DNA from: an uncultured Pelagibacteraceae bacterium | GTDB taxonomy: Bacteria > Pseudomonadota > Alphaproteobacteria > Pelagibacterales > Pelagibacteraceae | DNA length: 64,000 nt | Reading direction: 5' to 3' | Assembly: GCA_902554035.1 (NCBI GenBank) | Contig: CACDMX010000003.1 | Location: 1-64,000, forward strand | Shown here: positions 235-23,664 of the stretch, piece after piece | Position numbering within the stretch: the first letter of the stretch is position 1 | How the letters are laid out: each line of letters starts with the position of its first letter | Program-made: the position numbers and the translations under genes | Notes under the pieces: generated by a model | The model's input: the letters and a program-made list of their open reading frames with translations, nothing else | Database searches by the model: none | Told to the model about the DNA's origin: nothing

Positions 235-1188
235 TTATTTTTGTATAGTGTTTAATTTGTTCAACTCTTCAAGAAATTGTGGAAGAGCTTCAAAAAGATC
301 TGCTTCTAAACCATAATCTGCAACACTAAAAATTGGAGCTTCTCCGTCTTTATTGATTGCGACAATAACTTTGCTCTCTTTCATGCCTGCCAAGTGTTGA
401 ATCGCTCCAGATATGCCAACTGCAATATATAAATCCGGAACAACTACTTTTCCTGTTTGTCCAACCTGATGGTCATTGGTAATATATCCAGCATCAACTG
501 CTGCTCTAGAGGCTCCAATTGCTGCATTTAATTTATCTGCAATAGCAGTGATTAATTTAAAGTTATCACCACTTTGCATTCCTCTTCCACCAGAGATTAC
601 TACTCTTGCAGTACCTAGTTCTGGTCTATCAGATTTAACTTCTTCTCTCTTTAAAAATTTAGTAAGTGTTGTGGCTTCACTTGCTTCTGCTTTTACAATT
701 TCAGCTGACCCTCCAGAGGTAGCTGCTGGATCAAATGAAGTTGGTCTTATTGTAACACATTTTTTTTTATCTGTGCTTTTAACAGTTGCAAATGCATTAC
801 CAGCGTAAATTGGTCGTAAAAAAGTGTCTGGTGAAATTACTTTAATAATATCGCTTACTTGAGAAGTATCTAATAATGCTGCTACTCTTGGCATTAAGTT
901 TTTACCAAATGTATTAGCAGAACAAACAATATGAGAATAATTTTCAGCTTGTTTAATTATTACTGGTGAAAAATTTTCAGGTAAATAATTTTCATAAATT
1001 TCATGATCTATTTGTATAACTTTTTTAACATTGGGTACCTGTGCGATTGATTTAGAAACTTCATCTGCTTTATTTCCTATAACTAAAACGTGCAAATCTT
1101 GATCAATCTGAGATCCTGCTGTGATTGCATTTAAAGTAAAAGGTTTAACTTCCTTATTGTTATGTTCTGCTATTAATAATACTGACAT
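235..1188 (-). CDS. etfA: Electron transfer flavoprotein alpha subunit
   Basis: 317 aa ORF; ETF-alpha FAD-binding region (VVISGGRGMQSGDNF, GQTGKVVVPDLYIAVGISGAIQHLAGM). Confidence 0.96.
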   Translation of the reverse strand: MSVLLIAEHNNKEVKPFTLNAITAGSQIDQDLHVLVIGNKADEVSKSIAQVPNVKKVIQIDHEIYENYLPENFSPVIIKQAENYSHIVCSANTFGKNLMPRVAALLDTSQVSDIIKVISPDTFLRPIYAGNAFATVKSTDKKKCVTIRPTSFDPAATSGGSAEIVKAEASEATTLTKFLKREEVKSDRPELGTARVVISGGRGMQSGDNFKLITAIADKLNAAIGASRAAVDAGYITNDHQVGQTGKVVVPDLYIAVGISGAIQHLAGMKESKVIVAINKDGEAPIFSVADYGLEADLFEALPQFLEELNKLNTIQK

Positions 1189-1937
1189 TATATTACTTTA
1201 GCCTCATTTTTTAATTTTTGAACTAATTCTTCTACATTAGCAACTTTTATTCCAGCTTTTCTTTTTGGAGGCTCCTCAACTTTAATCTGTTCAATTCTTT
1301 GTTTAGTATCAACACCTAGGTCAGATGCATTAATTTGTTCGATAGGTTTTTTTTTTGCTTTCATTATATTAGGAAGCGAAGCATATCTAGGCTCATTTAA
1401 TCTTAAATCACAAGTTACTATTGCTGGGATATTTACTTCAATAGTTTCCAATCCTTCATCCACCTCTCTAGTAACTTCTAAACTTTTATCTTTCACTTCA
1501 ATTTTTGATGCAAAAGTTGCTTGAGGCCAGTTTAGTAATGCTGCTAGCATTTGTCCTGTTTGATTGCAATCATCATCAATAGCTTGTTTACCCATAAATA
1601 CTAAATCTGGTTTTTCTTTATCAACAATTTTTTGCAAAACTTTTGAGACTGCTAATGGTTCAATTATTCCCTCAACTTTTACATGAATACCTCTGTCAGC
1701 TCCGACAGCTAATGCTTTTCTTACTGTTTCTTGAGCTTTATCTTCGCCTACTGTAACTGCAACAATCTCTTTTGCTTTGCCTGCCTCTTTAATTTTTACA
1801 GCTTCTTCAACTGCATTATCATCTGGAGGATTTGTAGACATCTTAACATTGTCAGTAACTACGCCTGTACCGTCCTCTTTAACTCTTATCTGAACGTTGT
1901 AATCGATAACTCTTTTAACTGCGACCAATATTTTCAT
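1188..1937 (-). CDS. etfB: Electron transfer flavoprotein beta subunit
   Basis: 249 aa [17 protein letters not shown]..., [20 protein letters not shown] motif; overlaps etfA. Confidence 0.96.
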
Positions 1938-4369
1938 TATGCTCTTAACAATTTGTTTTCTGAATCGTAAGGACTTTCATCCAAAATTGTAGCGTCGTGC
2001 ATTTTACCTAAAATATCAATTTTTAATTTCTGACCAGTTGTCGCAATCTCAGGCTTAACCATTCCAAGTGCAATAGATTTATTTAATCTAAAACCGAAAT
2101 CTCCTCCTGTTGCTCTTCCAACAACTTTTCCATTTTCATAAATAGGATTATTTCCTAAGACATCAGCATCAGTTACATTGTGTACCTCCATTGTAACCAA
2201 CTTATTTTTAAAGCCCTTTTCCCTCCACTTATTTAGTGCCTCTAAACCTATGAAATTTCCTTTATTAGGGTGTATAAATCTATCTAGTCCAGACTCGTAA
2301 GGTGAATATTCAATAGACAATTCTGTGCCTACAAGTTTGTAAGATTTTTCAACTCTTAAACTGTTCATCGCCCTAATGCCAAATGGTTTTAAGCCAAGCT
2401 CTTTTCCGTGTTCCATTAACTTATCAAATATATGATTTTGATACTCGAGAGGATGATGGAGTTCCCATCCAAGTTCTCCAACAAAGTTAACTCTAATAGC
2501 GGTACATGGTGCATAGCCAATATCAACTTTTTTAGAACTTAACCATTTAAAATTGTCATTAGAAAAATCATCTTTAGAAACTTTTTGCATTAATTCTCTA
2601 GCTTTTGGGCCAGCCACAACCAATACGCCAACTGAATTTGTTATATTTTCAAATTGTACCGAACCATCTTTTGGCATCCATTTTTTTATCCAATCATGAT
2701 CTAATCTTTGAAAAGCTCCAGCAGATACTAAATAAAAACTATCTTCTGCTTCCTTCATAATAGTAAATTCGGAGTGGACACCTCCTTTTGTATTAAGCGC
2801 ATGACACAAATTAACTCTACCAATTTTTTTTGGAAGTTTGTTCGCAACTAGATAGTCTAAAAATTCTTCAGCTTTTGGTCCTTTGATTCTACATTTTGCA
2901 AATGCAGTCATGTCTAAAACACCAACGTTATCTTTAACATTTTTACATTCTTTTTTCACAGCTTCAAACCATTTAGATCTTCTAAAAGACCAATCATCTT
3001 TTTGCTCCATGCCATCTATCGCAAAAAAATTAGCTCTTTCCCAGCCAAACTTTTGTCCAAATACAGCTCCTAGTTTTTTGAGTCTATCATAACAAGGAGC
3101 CTGTCTTAATGGTCTGGCAGCCTCTCTTTCCTCATCAGGATAATGAATAATAAAAACATTTCTGTAAGCCTCTTCATTTTTTTCTTTTAAATACGATTTA
3201 GAACAATAGTCTCCATATCTTCTTGGTTCAACACCAAGCATGTCTACCGTTGGTTCTCCATCTATAATCCATTCTGCTAACTGCCATCCAGCTCCCCCGG
3301 CAGCAGTAATTCCAAAGCTATGACCTTCGTTTATCCAAAAGTTTTTTAAACCCCATGCAGGTCCAACAATAGGATTTCCATCTGGAGTATAACAAATAGC
3401 TCCATTATAAACTTTTTTTACTCCAACTTCTCCAAATGCTGGCACCCGGTGTATTGCTCCCTCTATATGAGGTGCAAGTCTCTCTAGATCTTCTTGAAAC
3501 AATTCGTACTCTGAATCTTTTGAAGGTCCATCTACATAACAACATGGTGCTCCATCTTCGTATGGTCCTAATATTAATCCTCCAGCTTCTTCTCTCATAT
3601 ACCAACGACTATCACTATCTCTAAGAACCCCCATTTCTGGCAGACCTTCTTTTTTTCTTTTTTGAATTTCAGGATGAGGTTCAGTTACAATATATTGGTG
3701 CTCAACTGGTATAACTGGAATCTCAAGACCAACCATTTTTCCTGTTTGTCTCGCAAAGTTACCTGAACAAGAAACAACATGTTCGCACTCTATTGTTCCT
3801 TTATCAGTTTCAACAACCCAGCCATTTTTTGTCTGTTTAATTCCAACTACTGTTGTATTTCTATAAATTTCCGCTCCTCTATTTCTTGCGCCTGTTGCAA
3901 GTGCTTGAGTTAAATCAGCTGGTTGAATATATCCATCTTCTGGATGTTGAATAGCTCCAATTAAATCGGAAGTATTACATAAAGGCCAGATTTCTTTTAC
4001 TTGATCTGGAGTCAAAAATTTATATTTCACACCAATAGTCTGAGCAACACCTGCATACTGATGGTACTCGTCCATTCTATCTTTTGTGCTTGCTAATCTA
4101 ATGTTAGATACAACACTAAAGCCAACATTTTTGCCAGTTTCTTCTTCTAAAGTTTTATAAAAATTTACTGCATATTGATGAAGTTGACCAACTGAATAAC
4201 TCATATTGAATAAAGGCAGTAATCCAGCTGCATGCCAAGTTGAACCTGAGGTTAATTCTTTTCTTTCAACTAGTACTACATCTGACCAACCTTTTTTAGC
4301 CAAGTGGTAAAGCATACTTACCCCAACTACACCGCCGCCGACAACAACTACTTTTGTTTTAGATTTCAT
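1937..4369 (-). CDS. FAD-dependent dimethylglycine/sarcosine dehydrogenase family protein (DAO + GcvT domains)
   Basis: 810 aa; N-terminal [34 protein letters not shown]-terminal GcvT-like folate-binding half. Confidence 0.9.
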
Positions 4370-8642: not shown

Positions 8643-9494
8643 TTAATCCGCTAAACCATCTGTTCTAGCTACATTTCTCTCCAAGTGAATAGGCAAAACT
8701 TTTCCATAAATTGCTTTTGAATGCTCTGGAGTATTTACTCTCCATGGATCTAAAACGTAAGCAGGGATGCACATGTATCTTGATTTTTTTCCTTGTACTT
8801 TTGTTACTCTATGAAGAGTAAATCTTCCCTTAAAAATTTGTAAATCACCTGGCTCTAACTTTAATTGTTTAACTCTTTTTCTATCACCATTTAAAACTTT
8901 TTTTACTTCATCAAAATTTTCGTTACCTGGCTCTCTTATATTTGGACAATATTCAAATATTCCACCCTTATCTGGTTTTTGTATCATTAAACTTAAAGTA
9001 AATTCGCAACTGTCAAAATGCCAAGGTAAAATTCCGTCTGGCTTCATAACATTATAAGCGTGACATGCTAAAGGATCGGCCCATCTATAAATAGGATGAA
9101 CACCTAAGCATGCTGATACAAATTTTAATAATTCGTCAGTTTCGTAAAGATATTTCATTTCAGAATTTTTTGGAAAGCAGTCGGAATTTAAATATCCATT
9201 ATATCTATTCATAAAATTTCTTTTTGGATGATCTTTTGGAAGTTTTGGATCATCTTTTGCGTATAAGTAAGGATTAATACTTTCTTTAGACATATAAACC
9301 TCATCTAATTGTTTTTCTAATTCAGAATTCATAATCTTTAATGACTCGGGTAAAATAAAATTTGGAATTGTTGAGCAACTAAATTGATCGAGTTCTTCTT
9401 TGCATCTTTTAATTAAATTTTTAATTATTGGAGAATTTAAATCGTATATTGGGTATCTTTTTAAATCTATTATCGATTTAAGTCTTTCGTTCAC
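8643..9494 (-). CDS. 2-oxoglutarate/Fe(II)-dependent oxygenase-like protein
   Basis: 283 aa; HxD (WHFDSCEFTLSLMIQ), distal H (KGRFTLHRVTKV) and the R of KKSRYMCIPAY. Confidence 0.75.
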   Translation of the reverse strand: MNERLKSIIDLKRYPIYDLNSPIIKNLIKRCKEELDQFSCSTIPNFILPESLKIMNSELEKQLDEVYMSKESINPYLYAKDDPKLPKDHPKRNFMNRYNGYLNSDCFPKNSEMKYLYETDELLKFVSACLGVHPIYRWADPLACHAYNVMKPDGILPWHFDSCEFTLSLMIQKPDKGGIFEYCPNIREPGNENFDEVKKVLNGDRKRVKQLKLEPGDLQIFKGRFTLHRVTKVQGKKSRYMCIPAYVLDPWRVNTPEHSKAIYGKVLPIHLERNVARTDGLAD

Positions 9495-9865
9495 TTTAAT
9501 TCTCCATCCTCTCGCATTTTAGCTCTGATTTTTGTCGCTGATATTTTTTGTATTTCTTCTGGCATTACTATTTCTTCAATCTTATATCCAACACCTCTTC
9601 CATAACAAATATTAGTTATGTTTGGAACTAACATAACTTTAAATCTTCCTTCAAATTCTGGGTTTAATCTTTCTTCAATTTTTTTTTTAACTGTTTCAAA
9701 ATCAAATGGATTATCATCTACTCCTTGAACATCTCTAATTTGAATACAAACCTGTCCAGTTTTTTTTATTATTTCTTTAAATAAAGCATAGTGGCCATCA
9801 TGAAATGGTTGCCATCTACCAAGCATTTGTGCAGTTGGTTTTTTATTATCCCATTTGTAGCTCAT
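9491..9865 (-). CDS. Nucleotidyltransferase (cytidylyltransferase-like)
   Basis: 124 aa; GRWQPFHDGHYALFKE (HxGH-like) and ISATKIRAKM. Confidence 0.8.
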   Translation of the reverse strand: MSYKWDNKKPTAQMLGRWQPFHDGHYALFKEIIKKTGQVCIQIRDVQGVDDNPFDFETVKKKIEERLNPEFEGRFKVMLVPNITNICYGRGVGYKIEEIVMPEEIQKISATKIRAKMREDGELK

Positions 9866-9896: not shown

Positions 9897-12233
9897 TTAA
9901 AAGACTTTATTTAGGTTTATACTCGCTTCTTTACTGTCACCTAAATTAGTTAAATCATCATTTAAATTGAAAGTTAGATCGTATCCATTAATATTTTTCT
10001 TTATTTCAAATTTAGACATCAAATTATCAGATCCATTTAATGAAAACGCATACTCAGTATCCTCATGAGGCAGGTAACCTAAAGCTATATACAAATTGTC
10101 TGTATATCCTGTGCTGAAAGCATGGTTTCTTTCGTAAATAATAAAAACACTGTAGTGCTCTGGAAAAATTATATCTATACCAATTTCACCGTTAAGATTA
10201 TGTAAAGATCCAGTGTGCAATGTATCATTTAACTTAACGCTACCATCCCCAACATAAGAATATTTAAAGTTTGACGATCGATCTAATTCAACTAAATACT
10301 CTAATTTTCCGTGTCTCTTTAAAGTGTATTTATCACTTGATAAATTTTCAACCACTGCCATCGTTGCTCTTAAATTTTTTGTTCGAACATGTTGGTTTTC
10401 AACTTCAATAGCTCCTTTACCTGCTTCTTGATATCCTCTTAATATTGTATGTCCAAAATCAAATTGTCCAGATGGAATAAAGGTTAATTTATCTCTTTTA
10501 TATTCATCTTTAATTTTAAATGTACCATAAATTTGATTTCCAGTTCTTTCTGCTGTTAAGCTTTTGCCATCAAGAACAGTAGTTATATCTGATCTTATTT
10601 TTCCTATTCCAAAGATTTTATCTAGGTATTTTGTGTCATCTTTAATAGGAGATGTACTATAATAAGTAATATTATATGTATTAGAATCTAAATTGCTTCC
10701 AGCGCTACCAACATCAACATCATCATTACCAAATCTAAAAGCTAATCCTTCAAGACTATAATCATCTGTAAATCTATCAAGGCCAAAAGTTAAGGCATTT
10801 GTGTTAATCTCTTTTGCTGATGCAATACTAGTGTCTCCTACTCTTCCAAGTGAAATACTTCCTTCACTCCAGTAAAAATAATTTTTATTTGATATGTTAT
10901 TATTTTTAGTCGCAGATATTTTTTTAATAGATGAAATTGGCACCGCTTTTAAAGATGAAAGCATAGCGTTTGAAAAATTTAATTTAATATTTTGGTTTGA
11001 TAAATTTTGTTTATCTTTGTTTCTTCTAATCCACTTCAATCTATTTAAAGCTGAGTTAGTTGAAAAATTAATTGTTCTTTTTGCTAATTCTATTTGAGCT
11101 AATGCAATACTATGTCTATCATTATTCTCAGTAATTGAAGGACATTTGCCAGCAATAATATTAAAAGGACAAACTAAATCATATTCAATAATTTGATCAA
11201 GACCAGCATTAGGATTTAGGCTTCTGTCTTTAGTTACATACATTTTTAATCCATTTGAGCTAAATGCAATCCCTCTTGGTTGTGAGTTGTTGTAAGCTGA
11301 TAAATTATCAATATCGAAACTACCATCTATTACAAATGATGATGTATCAAAAGCATTTGTTAAGGAAATTTGGAGTATTCTTGAAGTTCCACCATGAGCA
11401 TGATTAACAATAAATAATCTTTTTCCATCAGGTCTAAATCTTAAAGAAGTTGGTCCATGTGCACCAGTTAAGACATTTTCGGTTAATTTTATTCCTGCTG
11501 AAGTGACTAGAGATAAAGATGTCTCTGATAAATCATATGGAGTTGAGAGATTATATTCTAATAATCTACCCCCAACACCATCAGATCCATTATTATCTCT
11601 GTACATTAAAAATAATTTGGTACCATCATTATTTATTTCGATACCTTCAACCAAATTATTTGATCTACCGGTGTTATTATCAGTTCTATCTCCGGCTAAA
11701 CTACCATTTTGAAAATCATTATGATCAAGATTATTAGTTGCTGATGCACGAGTACAAGATGATATATCGTAGGGTGAAGTCAAATTTAGTACATACGCCT
11801 TATCGAAATCTCTATCTTGAACATTACGTCTAGAAACTACTAAAATTTTCATTCCATCACTAGTTATTTCTAAGTCATATAATTGTTGGCCATGATCTCC
11901 TGTATCTAAATTAAATACACATCTTTCACTGTCACCTGCAAAAGTTTTTGTGGATATATCGTATGGTGTAGATAGATTAAATGTAACTATATGTCGTGGA
12001 ACTGTTTCCGTAGCATCTACTTGAGCATAACTTACAAACATTTTTGTTCCATCCTTGTTAAACTCTATACCCGCAGCTAGTCCATAGTCACTATCATCTG
12101 AACCAGTTCCCGAACCACCAGTACCTTTTGTGTTGACAGTTGTTCTTTGATTGAAAGTTACCATTGCTGCAAATGAACTAGTAAAATAAAATAATAGAAA
12201 AAAAATAATGAGAATTTTTTTTAGAATATTCAT
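9897..12233 (-). CDS. Large exported protein: N-terminal beta-propeller-like repeats plus C-terminal autotransporter-like beta-barrel
   Basis: 778 aa; signal peptide MNILKKILIIFFLLFYFTSSFA; five repeats of the type GIxFxxDGTKMFV...NLSTPYDIS; C-terminal alternating beta-strand segments. Confidence 0.75.
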   Translation of the reverse strand: MNILKKILIIFFLLFYFTSSFAAMVTFNQRTTVNTKGTGGSGTGSDDSDYGLAAGIEFNKDGTKMFVSYAQVDATETVPRHIVTFNLSTPYDISTKTFAGDSERCVFNLDTGDHGQQLYDLEITSDGMKILVVSRRNVQDRDFDKAYVLNLTSPYDISSCTRASATNNLDHNDFQNGSLAGDRTDNNTGRSNNLVEGIEINNDGTKLFLMYRDNNGSDGVGGRLLEYNLSTPYDLSETSLSLVTSAGIKLTENVLTGAHGPTSLRFRPDGKRLFIVNHAHGGTSRILQISLTNAFDTSSFVIDGSFDIDNLSAYNNSQPRGIAFSSNGLKMYVTKDRSLNPNAGLDQIIEYDLVCPFNIIAGKCPSITENNDRHSIALAQIELAKRTINFSTNSALNRLKWIRRNKDKQNLSNQNIKLNFSNAMLSSLKAVPISSIKKISATKNNNISNKNYFYWSEGSISLGRVGDTSIASAKEINTNALTFGLDRFTDDYSLEGLAFRFGNDDVDVGSAGSNLDSNTYNITYYSTSPIKDDTKYLDKIFGIGKIRSDITTVLDGKSLTAERTGNQIYGTFKIKDEYKRDKLTFIPSGQFDFGHTILRGYQEAGKGAIEVENQHVRTKNLRATMAVVENLSSDKYTLKRHGKLEYLVELDRSSNFKYSYVGDGSVKLNDTLHTGSLHNLNGEIGIDIIFPEHYSVFIIYERNHAFSTGYTDNLYIALGYLPHEDTEYAFSLNGSDNLMSKFEIKKNINGYDLTFNLNDDLTNLGDSKEASINLNKVF

Positions 12234-12252: not shown

Positions 12253-12663
12253 TTATTTTTTTAGATCTTCAAATATCTTTGGTGCCCAAAGTTGTGCATC
12301 TTGAGAAGTGACATGAAAGTTATATTTTTCGGGCTTTATAAACATTTGGTTAGTATCTTCAAATCTTCCTTCTTTAATTGTATCTACCCAAACTACATAA
12401 TCTGCAGGAAATAATTTTCTTGCTTCAGGTGTTGGGCATATAAAATCTGCAACTACGTAATTACCTTCACTTTTTAATTTTAAAGCAAAGTCTGCCATTC
12501 TCCTTGCTTGTCTTGTTCTTCCTTCTGGTGAAAAATCCCAATCGTTTGCGGCTTTTCTAACTTCATCTGCATTAAGTCTTTTAGCATTAATCATTGGCGC
12601 TAAAGTCTCTGCAAGAGTTGTTTTGCCTGCACCCGGCAGGCCCATTATTAAAATAATTTTCAT
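12253..12663 (-). CDS. Small P-loop kinase, adenylylsulfate-kinase-like
   Basis: 136 aa; Walker A GLPGAGKTTLAETL, RLNADEVRKAANDWDFSPEGRTRQARRMADFA. Confidence 0.78.
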   Translation of the reverse strand: MKIILIMGLPGAGKTTLAETLAPMINAKRLNADEVRKAANDWDFSPEGRTRQARRMADFALKLKSEGNYVVADFICPTPEARKLFPADYVVWVDTIKEGRFEDTNQMFIKPEKYNFHVTSQDAQLWAPKIFEDLKK

Positions 12664-13898: not shown

Positions 13899-15074
13899 TT
13901 AAATTAAATTTTGTGCAACCCATTTATGAAAGTGATGGGTTGGATTATCCATAACTGGTGAAAAATTACCACCATTATAAACTGGAGAATTTCTACCAAT
14001 CTGCATCCCTTGTATTATATCAACGTCCTCTTTTTGAATATCTTCCCACTGTTTATGATTTTGCTCCCTCAATGATTTAAATTTATTTGAGTTAGCAGCC
14101 TCTTCTCCCACATAATATATTTCCATATGTTCTAAAGTGTACTCGTGGTTAATCGGTTCTAGCCAGTAAGCATAATAATGATCTTTATGTATGCCCAGCA
14201 TTACATTGGGAAATAAAGCTATATATTCAGCTATATTTTCTTTTTCTTTGGGCCAATTTGGAAAGCAAGGAAACTTTTCATTTCCTTCAAATCTTGGATT
14301 ATAAACAACGGTACCTTGACCTGCAAAACGATTTGGTAATCCTTGAATATGATAGTGATCTTCAATTTTTGAGTATGAGTTTAATCCAGGGTGCACCCAA
14401 GGCAAATGATAACTTTCACAATAATTTTCAATTGCAAATTTCCAATTACATTTTGCATTTAATTTAAAATATCCATAGTCATTAGAATGATTAATTAGAT
14501 CTCTATCTTTTACTGGCCAAAATTCTTCCCATCTATCACTTAAAGGTTTTATATATTCTTCAAAAGAGATTTCGTTATTATTGATGTTTATCATAATAAG
14601 ATCTAACCAAATATAAGATCTTATTTCTTTTAAATTACTTTTTGATTTTTCAAATTTTGGAGTTTCGTGAATATTCATGCCTCCAATATGAGGTGTGGCC
14701 ATTAGTTCGCCCTCTAAATTATATGACCAAGAATGATAAGGGCATCTTATTACGTTTTTAATTTTACCTGGTTTGCTCACCAGCTTTAAACCTCTATGGC
14801 TACAAATGTTATGAAAAACTTTGATTTGATTAGTTTTTGTTCTTACAATTAAAATAGGAATTCCTAACAGATCGATTGGCTTTGCGTCACCAATTTCGGG
14901 CAAAGCACTTGCAACACCAATTACTATCCATTTATCCTCAAATAATTTTTTTCTCTCAATTAATGTATATTCTTTACTTGTATAGCACTCGTTAGGTAAA
15001 CCGTGAGCTTCATGAATAGGCTTACTGACAATATCTAGCTTTTTTTTGTCTATAATATTGTAAATTTCAGACAT
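13899..15074 (-). CDS. Rieske non-heme iron oxygenase alpha subunit (choline/glycine betaine monooxygenase-like)
   Basis: 391 aa; Rieske CSHRG...CPYHSWSYNLEG; catalytic ENYCESYHLPWVHPGL. Confidence 0.85.
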   Translation of the reverse strand: MSEIYNIIDKKKLDIVSKPIHEAHGLPNECYTSKEYTLIERKKLFEDKWIVIGVASALPEIGDAKPIDLLGIPILIVRTKTNQIKVFHNICSHRGLKLVSKPGKIKNVIRCPYHSWSYNLEGELMATPHIGGMNIHETPKFEKSKSNLKEIRSYIWLDLIMININNNEISFEEYIKPLSDRWEEFWPVKDRDLINHSNDYGYFKLNAKCNWKFAIENYCESYHLPWVHPGLNSYSKIEDHYHIQGLPNRFAGQGTVVYNPRFEGNEKFPCFPNWPKEKENIAEYIALFPNVMLGIHKDHYYAYWLEPINHEYTLEHMEIYYVGEEAANSNKFKSLREQNHKQWEDIQKEDVDIIQGMQIGRNSPVYNGGNFSPVMDNPTHHFHKWVAQNLI

Positions 15075-19559: not shown

Positions 19560-20579
19560 ATGAAAATCAAAAACATTATAATTTCTGCTTTAGTATTGCT
19601 AGGTTTCGCTTCTTTTAGTGGAGTAGCTAATGCTGGATGTGGAAAATTAGTTATCGCTGAGCAAAACTGGGCATCTGCCGAGTTGATGGCGAACGTAGAC
19701 AAGATAATCCTTGAAAAAGGATACGGTTGTGAGGTGGAATTAATACCAGGTGCAACAATGCCTACTTTTACATCTATGGATGAAAAAGGTGAGCCAGATA
19801 TGAATCCTGAGCAATGGGCAAATGCAGTTTACACTCCTCTTAAAAAAGCTGTTTCAGAAAAAAGATTAATCATAGCTAACAAGGCTCCTATTACTGGTCT
19901 TGGTGAAGGCTGGTGGATTACTCCTGGAACTGTTGAAAAAATTCCGCAGATCAAAGGTATGACTGCAATGGAAATTTTAGAGCACCCTGAATGGTTTCCT
20001 TCAAAAGAAGATCCTTCAAAAGGAGCTTTTGTTGGTTGTCCAGCAGGATGGGGATGTCAATTAGCTAATGCAAACCTTTTCAGAGCATTTGAAATGGAAA
20101 AAAAAGGATGGGTATTAATTGATCCAGGTTCTGCAGCAGGTTTAGATGGTACAATATCTAAAGCAGCTGACTCTGGAAGTCCTTGGTTTGGTTACTATTG
20201 GAACCCAACTTCAATGGTTGGAAAATATGGTTTAATTCCTGTAGACTTTGGTGTGAAATTCCACAGCAGAGATAATTGGGATAACTGTATAACACTAGCT
20301 GAGCAAGATTGTGCAGATCCAAAACCAACTGCTTGGACTAAATCTGAAGTTAACTCTATCGTTACAGCAAACTTTGCTAAAACTGGAGGAAAAGACGCTC
20401 TAAAATATGTTAAAAAGCGAACTTACCCAGGCGAAGTAATGAATGGAATGCTTGTTTACATGGCTGAAAACCAAGCTAAAGGTTCAGATGCAGCAATCGA
20501 GTTTTTATCTAAACATGAAGATGTTTGGGGTAAATGGGTATCTGGAGCTGCTAAGAAAAAAATTAAAGCTGGTCTTTAA
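19560..20579 (+). CDS. Glycine betaine/proline-type ABC transporter substrate-binding protein (OpuAC family)
   Basis: 339 aa with signal peptide; VIAEQNWASAELMANVDKIILEKGYGCEVELIPG, DPGSAAGLDG. Confidence 0.9.
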   Translation: MKIKNIIISALVLLGFASFSGVANAGCGKLVIAEQNWASAELMANVDKIILEKGYGCEVELIPGATMPTFTSMDEKGEPDMNPEQWANAVYTPLKKAVSEKRLIIANKAPITGLGEGWWITPGTVEKIPQIKGMTAMEILEHPEWFPSKEDPSKGAFVGCPAGWGCQLANANLFRAFEMEKKGWVLIDPGSAAGLDGTISKAADSGSPWFGYYWNPTSMVGKYGLIPVDFGVKFHSRDNWDNCITLAEQDCADPKPTAWTKSEVNSIVTANFAKTGGKDALKYVKKRTYPGEVMNGMLVYMAENQAKGSDAAIEFLSKHEDVWGKWVSGAAKKKIKAGL

Positions 20580-20620: not shown

Positions 20621-20636
20621 GTTGTTTAAGAATATA

Positions 20637-21521
20637 ATGGATTTTTTAACTAAATTTCCTGTCATGGATCGTAAATCCCTAATGGAATTAAGAAAAGGGA
20701 TTGATCAAACTTTTAGAGAATTTTCTAGAGCTTATGGTGATGGTATAGAAGCATTTTTTGATCCACTATTATTTTTCTTAATTAAGTTAGAAAAATTATT
20801 ATTAGCTACACCATGGCCATTAATATTATTAATACTTGGTGGATTAGCTTGGTTAGGTTCAAGAAGTTGGAAACTTGTAGTTGGAAGTGTCATAGCTTTT
20901 GTATTGATAGGATACTTTGGTATGTGGAAAGATTGTATGGCAACAGTAGCAATCATAACAGTTTGTACAATCATGTGTATAGCCGTTGGAATACCAATTG
21001 GAGTTCTGATGGCTAGATCTGATAGAGTTGAAAGATCAATGCTTCCTGTTTTAGATATGATGCAAACCATTCCTAGTTTTGTTTATTTAATTCCAATATT
21101 GATGCTACTTGGTATTGGCAAGATTCCTGGTTTGATTGCTGTTTGCATATACGCAATACCACCAGTGATAAGATTAACTAATTTGGGTATAAGAGAGGTC
21201 GATAAAGAGACAATAGAGGCAAGTGAAGCTTTCGGAGCGACAAAATTACAAAAATTAAGAACTGTTCAAATACCTTTAGCGCTACCAACAGTGTTTGCTG
21301 GCGTAAACCAAACTATAATGATGGCACTAGCTATGGTGGTTATAGCTTCAATGATTGGAGTTAAAGGTTTAGGAGTTCCTATTTTAAGAGCCATATCAAA
21401 CCAATATTTAGCTTTGGGATTGTTTAATGGTTTAGCCATTGTAGCGCTTGCTATAATCTTTGATAGAATTACACAGGAATATGGTCGAAGAATACAAAAG
21501 CACAGAGGAATAAAAAGATAG
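20637..21521 (+). CDS. ABC transporter permease (ProW family)
   Basis: Permease with multiple TM helices; EASEAFGATKLQKLRTVQIPLALPTVFAGVNQ EAA loop. The TTG start in the ORF track (20622) abuts the stem-loop; ATG at 20637 is preferred. Confidence 0.9.
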   Translation: MDFLTKFPVMDRKSLMELRKGIDQTFREFSRAYGDGIEAFFDPLLFFLIKLEKLLLATPWPLILLILGGLAWLGSRSWKLVVGSVIAFVLIGYFGMWKDCMATVAIITVCTIMCIAVGIPIGVLMARSDRVERSMLPVLDMMQTIPSFVYLIPILMLLGIGKIPGLIAVCIYAIPPVIRLTNLGIREVDKETIEASEAFGATKLQKLRTVQIPLALPTVFAGVNQTIMMALAMVVIASMIGVKGLGVPILRAISNQYLALGLFNGLAIVALAIIFDRITQEYGRRIQKHRGIKR

Positions 21522-21584: not shown

Positions 21585-22313
21585 ATGAAGTTTTCTTTGG
21601 AAATTGGACCTAAAACTGATCTAGAGACCCTACCAGGTTTAAAGGATGTCTATATAACAATGCTCCCAGGAGGTGATTTTAGAGATACGGCTGACCAGGC
21701 TATAAAGCTTGTTAAAAAGGGCTTTAATCCTATTCCGCATTTTCCTGCTAGATCTATTGAGGATGACGTTCAATTAAAAGAGTATGTTTCAAGATGCAAA
21801 GATGGTGGCGTGAAGCAGGTATTAGTTATTGGCGGCAGTAGAGATCCAATAGGAAAATTTGATAGTTCAATTCAGCTTTTGGAGACCGGCTATTTTGAGC
21901 AGATGACAATAGGAATCGCTGGACATCCAGAGGGGAGTCCTGATATATCCGATTCTGATTTAGAAAAAGCTATGAAAGATAAAAAGCCTTACGCTGACTA
22001 TATAGTAACCCAATGGTTATTAGATTCTCAGAAAATATTAGATTTCATTTCTAAACAAACTGTACCAGTTCATGTTGGAATTACTGGACCACTTAAAATA
22101 ACTAGTCTAATTAAATTTGCTAATATTGTAGGTGCAAAAAATTCCTTAAATTTTCTTAAATCTAATTTTAGTAAGGCACTAGATTTAATGAAACCTAGAG
22201 ACCCAAATGATTTAATAGGGAAAGTTAAATCGCACACTGATTTTTTTCACATTTATACATTCGGCGGCTTGAAGGAAACTAACAAGTGGTTGATGGAGAA
22301 CAAATATGTCTAA
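21585..22313 (+). CDS. Methylenetetrahydrofolate reductase family protein (short MetF-like)
   Basis: 242 aa; SLEIGPKTDLETLPGL, HFPARSIEDD, GIAGHPEGSPDIS, ADYIVTQ. Confidence 0.82.
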   Translation: MKFSLEIGPKTDLETLPGLKDVYITMLPGGDFRDTADQAIKLVKKGFNPIPHFPARSIEDDVQLKEYVSRCKDGGVKQVLVIGGSRDPIGKFDSSIQLLETGYFEQMTIGIAGHPEGSPDISDSDLEKAMKDKKPYADYIVTQWLLDSQKILDFISKQTVPVHVGITGPLKITSLIKFANIVGAKNSLNFLKSNFSKALDLMKPRDPNDLIGKVKSHTDFFHIYTFGGLKETNKWLMENKYV

Positions 22314-23664
22314 AGAGTTTGACTACACTAAGCTTAAACATGTAACTTCTGTAGATCAGTCTGATCGTGAGGTTCCATATAATTTAAGACAAAGCGGGCC
22401 TACAAAAGTTGAAATGTTAATTTCAACAAGAGTAAGAAAATCGCCTTATTGGCATTTATCAATGCAAGCTGGTTGTTGGAGAGCAACAGTTTATAACCGG
22501 ATTTATCACCCAAGAGGATATGTTAAGCCTGAAGATGGTGGGGCAATGGTTGAATATGATGCAATTGTTAATCATGTAACAATGTGGAATGTTGCTGTTG
22601 AAAGACAGATTAGAGTAAAAGGTCCAGATGCAGAAAAATTCACAGATTATGTGATTACAAGAGATGCAACAAAAATTTCACCAATGCGAGCAAGATATGT
22701 AATTTTATGTAATGCTTACGGTGGAGTTTTAAATGATCCAATTCTTCTTAGAATTTCAAAAGATGAGTTTTGGTTTTCATTATCAGATTCTGATATTGGT
22801 ATGTATCTTCAAGGTGTAAATGCTGATGGTAGATTTAATTGTACTATAGAAGAAATTGATGCTTGCCCAGTACAAATTCAAGGACCAAAATCAAAAGCTT
22901 TAATGAAAGATTTGCTTGGAGATCAAGTCGATTTAGATAACATGCCGTTTTATGGTTTAGCTGAAGTCAAAGTTGCGGGAAGAAGTTGTGTAATTTCACA
23001 ATCTGGTTTCTCAGGAGAAGCGGGATATGAAATATATTTAAGAAATGCAACTTTATATGCAGACGATATGTGGAACGCTGTTCTTGAAGCTGGTAAGAAA
23101 CATAACTTAATGGTTATAGCTCCAGCTCATCATAGAAGGATACAAGCTGGAATTCTTTCCTGGGGACAAGATATGGATATGCAACACAATCCTTTTCAAT
23201 GTAATCTTGGTTATCAAGTTTCTTTATCTGGTAAAGGTGAATGGAATAAAAAGACTGATTATATTGGTAAAGCAGTTCTTGAAAAAATGGGAGCTGATAT
23301 TAGATCAGGGAAGAAACCATATAAGCTTCAATTGGTTGGTCTTGAATTAGGTGGAAAACCGATAGAAGAATATGCTCCAGATTTTTGGTTAATCTCAAAC
23401 GCTGATGGAGGAGATCCAGTTGGATTTATAACGTCTCCTTGGTATCACCCAGAAAAAAAACAAAATATAGCAATGGGCTATGTTCCATTTGATGGAACAT
23501 TAAATGCAAATGGTTTTCCCAAAGGAAAAGTTGGAACCAAGTATAAAGTTCATTTACCTGAAAAATATTCAGATAAACCTGGGACACCTGTTGATGCAGT
23601 GGTTGTTGATATACCATTCAAAGAATCATTTAACGCAAATACAAGAGAAGTAGTAAAGGGATAA
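22306..23664 (+). CDS. GcvT-family THF-dependent methyltransferase, DmdA-like
   Basis: 452 aa; WNVAVERQIRVKGPDAEKFTDYVITRD, FWFSLSDSDI, SGFSGEAGYEIYL, RIQAGILSWGQDMDMQHNPFQCNLGY. Start overlaps the MetF-like gene by 8 bp. Confidence 0.82.
   Translation: MSKEFDYTKLKHVTSVDQSDREVPYNLRQSGPTKVEMLISTRVRKSPYWHLSMQAGCWRATVYNRIYHPRGYVKPEDGGAMVEYDAIVNHVTMWNVAVERQIRVKGPDAEKFTDYVITRDATKISPMRARYVILCNAYGGVLNDPILLRISKDEFWFSLSDSDIGMYLQGVNADGRFNCTIEEIDACPVQIQGPKSKALMKDLLGDQVDLDNMPFYGLAEVKVAGRSCVISQSGFSGEAGYEIYLRNATLYADDMWNAVLEAGKKHNLMVIAPAHHRRIQAGILSWGQDMDMQHNPFQCNLGYQVSLSGKGEWNKKTDYIGKAVLEKMGADIRSGKKPYKLQLVGLELGGKPIEEYAPDFWLISNADGGDPVGFITSPWYHPEKKQNIAMGYVPFDGTLNANGFPKGKVGTKYKVHLPEKYSDKPGTPVDAVVVDIPFKESFNANTREVVKG

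Follow-up and report, generated by a model that had tools for sequence, protein, structure and literature searches.

The closest described counterpart of the locus analyzed here is a gene pair of Ca. Pelagibacter ubique HTCC1062, reported in 2011, in which SAR11_1264 is metF and SAR11_1265 is an aminomethyltransferase near DmdA whose substrate was not known; Sun et al. guessed that SAR11_1265 takes the second methyl group of DMSP (PMC3160333). The mRNAs of both genes are 5- to 10-fold lower in stationary phase, with protein levels nearly constant (PMC5069961). A second relevant system comes from Sphingobium lignivorans SYK-6 (structures 5X1I, 7XG9, and 7XLF), in which S6MTHFR is reported to oxidize the 5-methyl-THF made by the THF-dependent demethylase LigM (PMC12585457). 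Betaine is known to be oxidized by SAR11 (PMC3160333), where its demethylation has been assigned to a predicted, unvalidated BHMT (PMC12478193). MtgBCD of Ruegeria, a corrinoid glycine betaine demethylase made up of three cobalamin-dependent components, offers another route, and its component MtgC is reported absent in Pelagibacteraceae (PMC12478193).

The window analyzed here (the whole stretch of 64,000 nucleotides) is carried by a 1.07-Mb Pelagibacteraceae (SAR11) genome, an 86% complete draft, and those of its relatives that have names are Pelagibacteraceae. It contains the same arrangement as HTCC1062, a metF-like gene adjacent to a gene for a DmdA-related aminomethyltransferase, here called AMT452 (Table 1). 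No difference from SAR11_1264/SAR11_1265 is known, and from the published description and synteny we infer that the two pairs are orthologous; the pair is therefore not new, having been published in 2011 (PMC3160333). The first-pass annotation had described a 242-aa MetF-like open reading frame (ORF) overlapping a 452-aa GcvT-family ORF, and both the coordinates and the lengths match. Pfam recovers the MTHFR domain on the 242-aa ORF just above threshold (24.5 bits; cutoff, 24) and GCV_T (E = 4.4e-39) together with GCV_T_C on the 452-aa ORF. The stop of the first gene overlaps the start of the second by 8 bp, which suggests translational coupling. Because the pair is intact in every SAR11 ortholog locus listed, the pairing is not due to chance. 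We conclude that it is a real, conserved module that was described before without being explained.

Table 1. Features of the metF-like/AMT452 region and its neighbors in the window
Feature	Coordinates	Strand	Basis or remark
ETF alpha	235-1188	-	Same order in genomes G327 and G370
ETF beta	1188-1937	-	Same order in genomes G327 and G370
DMGDH-type enzyme, 810 aa, followed by ETF beta and alpha	1937-4369	-	Predicted next pathway step(s)
PhyH-like, nucleotidyltransferase-like, and small kinase genes	8643-9865, 12253-12663		Recurrent neighbors in SAR11
778-aa protein	9897-12233		Signal-peptide-like start
Rieske oxygenase	13899-15074		Distantly like glycine betaine monooxygenase
DMGDH-like, 801 aa	15796-18201	-	Variable neighbor
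BHMT-like, 348 aa	18211-19257	-	Variable neighbor
OpuAC-type binding protein	19560-20579	+	Variable neighbor, onium transporter
ProW-type permease	20622-21521	+	Variable neighbor, onium transporter
MetF-like protein, 242 aa, S6MTHFR-type methylene-THF reductase family	21585-22313	+	Profile, predicted fold
Overlap of metF-like stop with AMT452 start, 8 bp	22306-22313	+	Sequence
AMT452, 452-aa GcvT-fold protein	22306-23664	+	PF01571/PF08669, clade, fold
AMT452 N-terminal motif VDQSDREVPYNLRQSG, residues 16-31	22351-22398	+	Clade conservation table
AMT452 N143-D144-P145	22732-22740	+	Alignment with DmdA N107-D108-P109
AMT452 Q232 to Y244	22999-23037	+	Conservation table; E242 and Y244 conserved

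Sequence and structural comparisons agree on the nearest characterized relative of AMT452. Its closest solved structure by sequence is Pelagibacter DmdA (3TFH, 369 aa; E = 6e-42; about 29% identity), and its AlphaFold2 model (pLDDT 88) is nearest in fold to the same structure (TM 0.93, normalized to DmdA). The resemblance to DmdA proposed in the first-pass annotation is thereby borne out, all of the motifs it quoted occur in the 452-aa translation, and its estimate that the protein is some 80 aa longer than DmdA agrees with the lengths just given. Identity with DmdA did not survive the comparison. On the DmdA model (PRK12486, an NCBIfam equivalog with a cutoff of 410 bits), AMT452 scores 227 bits and its orthologs score 229 to 275 bits, and its own genome encodes a true DmdA elsewhere (369 aa, 567 bits), as do other AMT452-bearing SAR11 genomes. 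In a tree of 78 GcvT-domain proteins, AMT452 forms its own clade (support, 100/100) within a DmdA superclade, and the DmdA clade is likewise supported (100/100) with AMT452 outside it. The score, the separate clade, and the second gene in the same genome together rule out that AMT452 is DmdA. SAR11 contains two types of DmdA-clade protein, of 388 to 401 aa and of 369 aa, on separate branches. A further, uncharacterized DmdA-superclade family of ∼385 aa occurs in SAR11 and many other Alphaproteobacteria; two of its members score 376 to 394 bits on the DmdA model, and a copy on a Phaeobacter plasmid adjoins OsmC, enoyl-CoA hydratase, and acyl-CoA synthetase genes.

The same tree sets AMT452 apart from GcvT, DMGDH, SoxA, and TMAO demethylase-like proteins, so the phylogeny that the first-pass annotation had suggested places it with the DmdA superclade and away from GcvT. 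A classical GcvT is ruled out by this position and by the score on the GcvT model (PRK00389; 146 bits against a cutoff of 300). Model scores and the tree also rule out a LigM/DesA O-demethylase: AMT452 reaches 37 and 42 bits on the LigM and DesA models (cutoffs, 580 and 800), and its match to LigM (TM 0.6) is that of a distant demethylase.

Conserved residues both join AMT452 to DmdA and separate the two. The NDP motif and the THF-side residues E242 and Y244 are shared with DmdA; the Asp of the motif (D144), a residue with a catalytic or THF role in the family, is also present in GcvT. The GcvT fold, the grouping with DmdA, this conserved Asp, and the THF-side residues place AMT452 among the THF-dependent methyltransferases of the DmdA superclade, and we predict that, like DmdA, it carries out a redox-neutral methyl transfer to THF. 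AMT452 differs from DmdA in its greater length, in its N-methylglycine gene neighbors, and in an N-terminal motif, V-D-Q-x-D-R-x-V-P-x-N-L-R-Q-x-G, that is near-invariant in AMT452 and not found in DmdA, related paralogs, or GcvT (the model has low to moderate confidence at these residues). It also has Gln at position 232 (24/24 members), where an Arg (Arg194 of DmdA) is invariant in DmdA, related paralogs, and GcvT. A Trp of DmdA contacts DMSP (PMC7487153), and we mapped it onto W197 by spacing. Comparison of DMSP-binding residues, likewise suggested in the first-pass annotation, came out against DMSP at this position, which is Phe (F235) in all 24 AMT452 members. The substitution is suggestive but not decisive, because half of the DmdA clade (4/8) has Tyr there.

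The partner enzyme can be placed in a family more specific than MetF. A profile built from 34 relatives of the MetF-like protein matches 7XG9 with 294 bits (E = 1.2e-86) and canonical MetF with at most 48.5 bits, and the predicted fold is closest to 7XG9 and 7XLF (TMq 0.87 and 0.85). Canonical MetF is excluded by its model (TIGR00676), on which the protein scores 24.9 bits against a cutoff of 293.7. By profile and predicted fold, the MetF-like protein is a member of the Sphingobium S6MTHFR family, and it is the sole PF02219 match in the draft genome. SAR11 is described as being without MetE, MetH, and MtgBCDE (PMC12478193), and a survey of nine SAR11 genomes turned up no PF02574 protein of MetH size. 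Without MetE or MetH, 5-methyl-THF would be purposeless for methionine synthesis, which argues for the oxidative direction. Family membership and the absence of methionine synthase thus suggest that the enzyme oxidizes 5-methyl-THF to 5,10-methylene-THF. The pairing of a THF-dependent demethylase with an MTHFR of this family recalls LigM/S6MTHFR, with the differences that the genes here overlap and that the donor is probably an osmolyte and not an aryl ether. The idea in the first-pass annotation that demethylation to 5-methyl-THF and MetF-type oxidation form a unit thereby gains support from both family assignments.

The window also encodes candidates for later steps. The 810-aa DMGDH-type enzyme occurs in every AMT452-bearing SAR11 genome that was tested, and close relatives of it adjoin AMT452 in other Alphaproteobacteria; ETF alpha and beta are its predicted electron acceptors, and ETF domains were confirmed in the ETF alpha ortholog of genome G327. 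In HTCC1062 the predicted dmgdh, SAR11_1253, lies about a dozen genes from SAR11_1264/1265. In the complete SAR11 genome G370, a stretch of about 27 kb holds fhs, soxBDAG, AMT452-metF, and DMGDH-ETF-ETFQO, and no 348-aa (long) BHMT-type gene was found in that genome.

Genes immediately upstream are less constant. In relatives the site is occupied by OpuAC-ProW with BHMT and DMGDH, by a Rieske oxygenase, or by kinase and nucleotidyltransferase genes. The pair does lie downstream of an onium transporter here, as the first-pass annotation had it, but since the upstream genes vary among SAR11 relatives, the transporter cannot count as a constant component of the unit, and we rejected it as such. 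OpuAC-ProW has no ATPase gene beside it, and a block comprising this transporter, BHMT, the 801-aa DMGDH, and a methyltransferase is present as a whole at the site in some SAR11 relatives and missing in others. The 801-aa DMGDH-like and 348-aa BHMT-like proteins constitute an alternative betaine route in part of SAR11. The Rieske oxygenase of the window scores 114 bits on the glycine betaine monooxygenase model (cutoff, 670), and a paralog (∼60%) is divergent beside metF-AMT452 in many SAR11 (e.g., L256, 5261-6490). PhyH-like, nucleotidyltransferase-like, and small kinase genes recur near the pair in SAR11, and the 778-aa protein is 61% conserved in another SAR11 genome.

AMT452 orthologs (50 to 83% identity) extend to other Alphaproteobacteria, other Proteobacteria, and haloarchaeal plasmids. 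We compared 8-kb neighborhoods of 29 orthologs outside Pelagibacteraceae with those of 20 DmdA and ∼385-aa paralog loci. A dimethylglycine/sarcosine demethylation gene was present at 19/29 AMT452 loci and 1/20 of the others (Fisher, 2e-5), and an S6MTHFR-type MetF at 17/29 and 0/20 (Fisher, 9e-6). Collapsed to families by our own grouping, the former association was 8/14 versus 1/12 (p = 0.014); six of the 14 AMT452 families, and Haloarcula GH36, had no such neighbors within 8 kb. Fhs was seen near AMT452 loci by Pfam and annotation. Haloarchaeal plasmids carry AMT452 and MTHFR, variously with GlyA, FolD, formate-THF ligase, formate dehydrogenase, DHFR, and a DMGDH-like gene; some of these megaplasmid folate one-carbon islands also hold folP and pabB, and creatininase is frequent. 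In at least nine genomes AMT452 is the sole DmdA-superclade protein. AMT452, MetF, and DMGDH are all absent from a pair of complete genomes belonging to another genus within the family.

Two further distributions were considered. BHMT occurs in only 49/121 related genomes, and its co-occurrence with AMT452 within the genus (25/57 versus 3/15, drafts) was not significant (p = 0.14). MttB-family proteins are absent from 16/18 AMT452-bearing Alphaproteobacteria sampled (one of the other two is a weak match and one a strong match) and near-universal (30/31) in genomes with only DmdA or the ∼385-aa paralog. When all other genomes serve as the comparison, the anti-association vanishes (p = 0.55), and shared ancestry confounds it; inside single families the contrast runs as expected in two cases and does not fit in a third. 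MttB replacement was accordingly set aside as proof and counts as weak support.

We consider it very probable that the pair is a module for THF-dependent demethylation and oxidation of the resulting methyl-THF. The best single hypothesis, which we hold at about even chances, is that it is a glycine betaine demethylase-oxidase module; fold, clade, the tight linkage of the two genes, neighborhood, and distribution are observed, and enzyme activity, the direction of the MetF-like enzyme, and above all the donor are matters of inference. The first-pass annotation had named no donor; glycine betaine is suggested by gene neighborhood and distribution with the same evenly balanced confidence. AMT452, free of cobalamin, would pass the first methyl group of betaine to THF, giving dimethylglycine and 5-methyl-THF, and the MetF-like protein would oxidize the latter to 5,10-methylene-THF, so that the folate becomes usable again. 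The two remaining methyl groups would leave as methylene-THF through the action of an ETF-linked dimethylglycine/sarcosine dehydrogenase and of SoxBDAG, with oxidation of the one-carbon units falling to FolD, formate-THF ligase, and formate dehydrogenase; the neighboring dehydrogenases are named by family, and their substrates are putative. To our knowledge, there is no precedent for moving a methyl group from a quaternary ammonium compound directly to THF without cobalamin. Such a transfer is chemically harder than one from the sulfonium of DMSP, and LigM, in demethylating aryl ethers, provides a precedent for poor donors. The literature searched, which covered few subscription papers or preprints, yielded no description of a betaine demethylase that depends on THF, and nothing useful was found there on a link to homarine. 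The net reaction proposed for AMT452 is that of MtgBCD (PMC12478193), carried out by one cobalamin-free enzyme instead of three unrelated cobalamin-dependent components. BHMT likewise removes the first methyl of betaine, but it belongs to an unrelated family, uses homocysteine as the acceptor, and is found in only part of SAR11.

The same chemistry could act on another quaternary or N-methyl donor, such as proline betaine, carnitine, choline, or a creatine-type compound, since the neighborhood fixes the class of pathway and not the donor. Creatininase genes in several haloarchaeal islands and the Rieske, M24, and methyltransferase genes nearby in SAR11 would fit such a donor. Creatininase was not seen in bacterial neighborhoods, however, and among three-methyl precursors of dimethylglycine betaine is the simplest; SAR11 is also known to draw energy from it (PMC3160333). 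We give this reading a real but distinctly smaller chance. That a Rieske oxygenase or BHMT takes the first betaine methyl, with AMT452 acting on a later or unrelated one, draws on the presence of BHMT in this genome and many SAR11 and on the distantly GbcA-like oxygenase that is divergently adjacent in some. Set against it are Rieske scores of 114 to 125 bits, far below the GbcA cutoff, the fact that no reductase partner was seen beside the oxygenase, and the patchiness of BHMT; we regard it as quite unlikely. No more room is left for an H-protein-dependent GcvT-type aminomethyltransferase or a YgfZ/IBA57-type folate-binding regulator. The GcvT fold and Pfam domains would allow either, but the true GcvT genes of related genomes form a separate clade, YgfZ/IBA57 gives a much poorer match in structure, and the linked MetF-like enzyme suggests a source of 5-methyl-THF; we rate this pair of options very unlikely.

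Sulfonium donors fare no better than improbable. Betaine-type transporters can also carry DMSP, and DmdA is the nearest characterized relative in both sequence and structure, which would suit a divergent DmdA acting on DMSP or another sulfonium. Against this stand the subthreshold scores on the DmdA model, the separate clade, the Trp-to-Phe and Arg-to-Gln replacements, and the true DmdA in the same SAR11 genomes, and a DMSP-only role is argued against by the nine genomes in which AMT452 is the only protein of the superclade. Conversion of MMPA to mercaptopropionate, the second-methyl role that Sun et al. proposed because the protein resembles DmdA and is equally abundant in metagenomes (PMC3160333), we consider highly improbable: the same nine genomes and the haloarchaeal plasmids do not support it, the neighbors are N-methylglycine genes, thioethers donate methyl groups poorly, and the Pelagibacter pathway is now drawn through DmdB and DmdC (PMC5069961).

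Glycine betaine thus remains the donor we favor. With a confidence slightly short of even, we propose that AMT452 is the first glycine betaine:THF methyltransferase to act directly and without cobalamin, present in SAR11, other Proteobacteria, and haloarchaea, and that together with a dedicated methyl-THF oxidase it may provide a homocysteine-independent entry into the oxidation of betaine. Among ocean osmolytes glycine betaine is a major one, and SAR11 bacteria are very abundant in the ocean; BHMT needs homocysteine, so that betaine use by this enzyme is tied to methionine demand. If true, direct transfer to THF would account for how SAR11 that have no BHMT could oxidize betaine and for why SAR11 have kept an MTHFR without methionine synthase, and it would replace the poorly supported proposal of a role in removing the second methyl group of DMSP.
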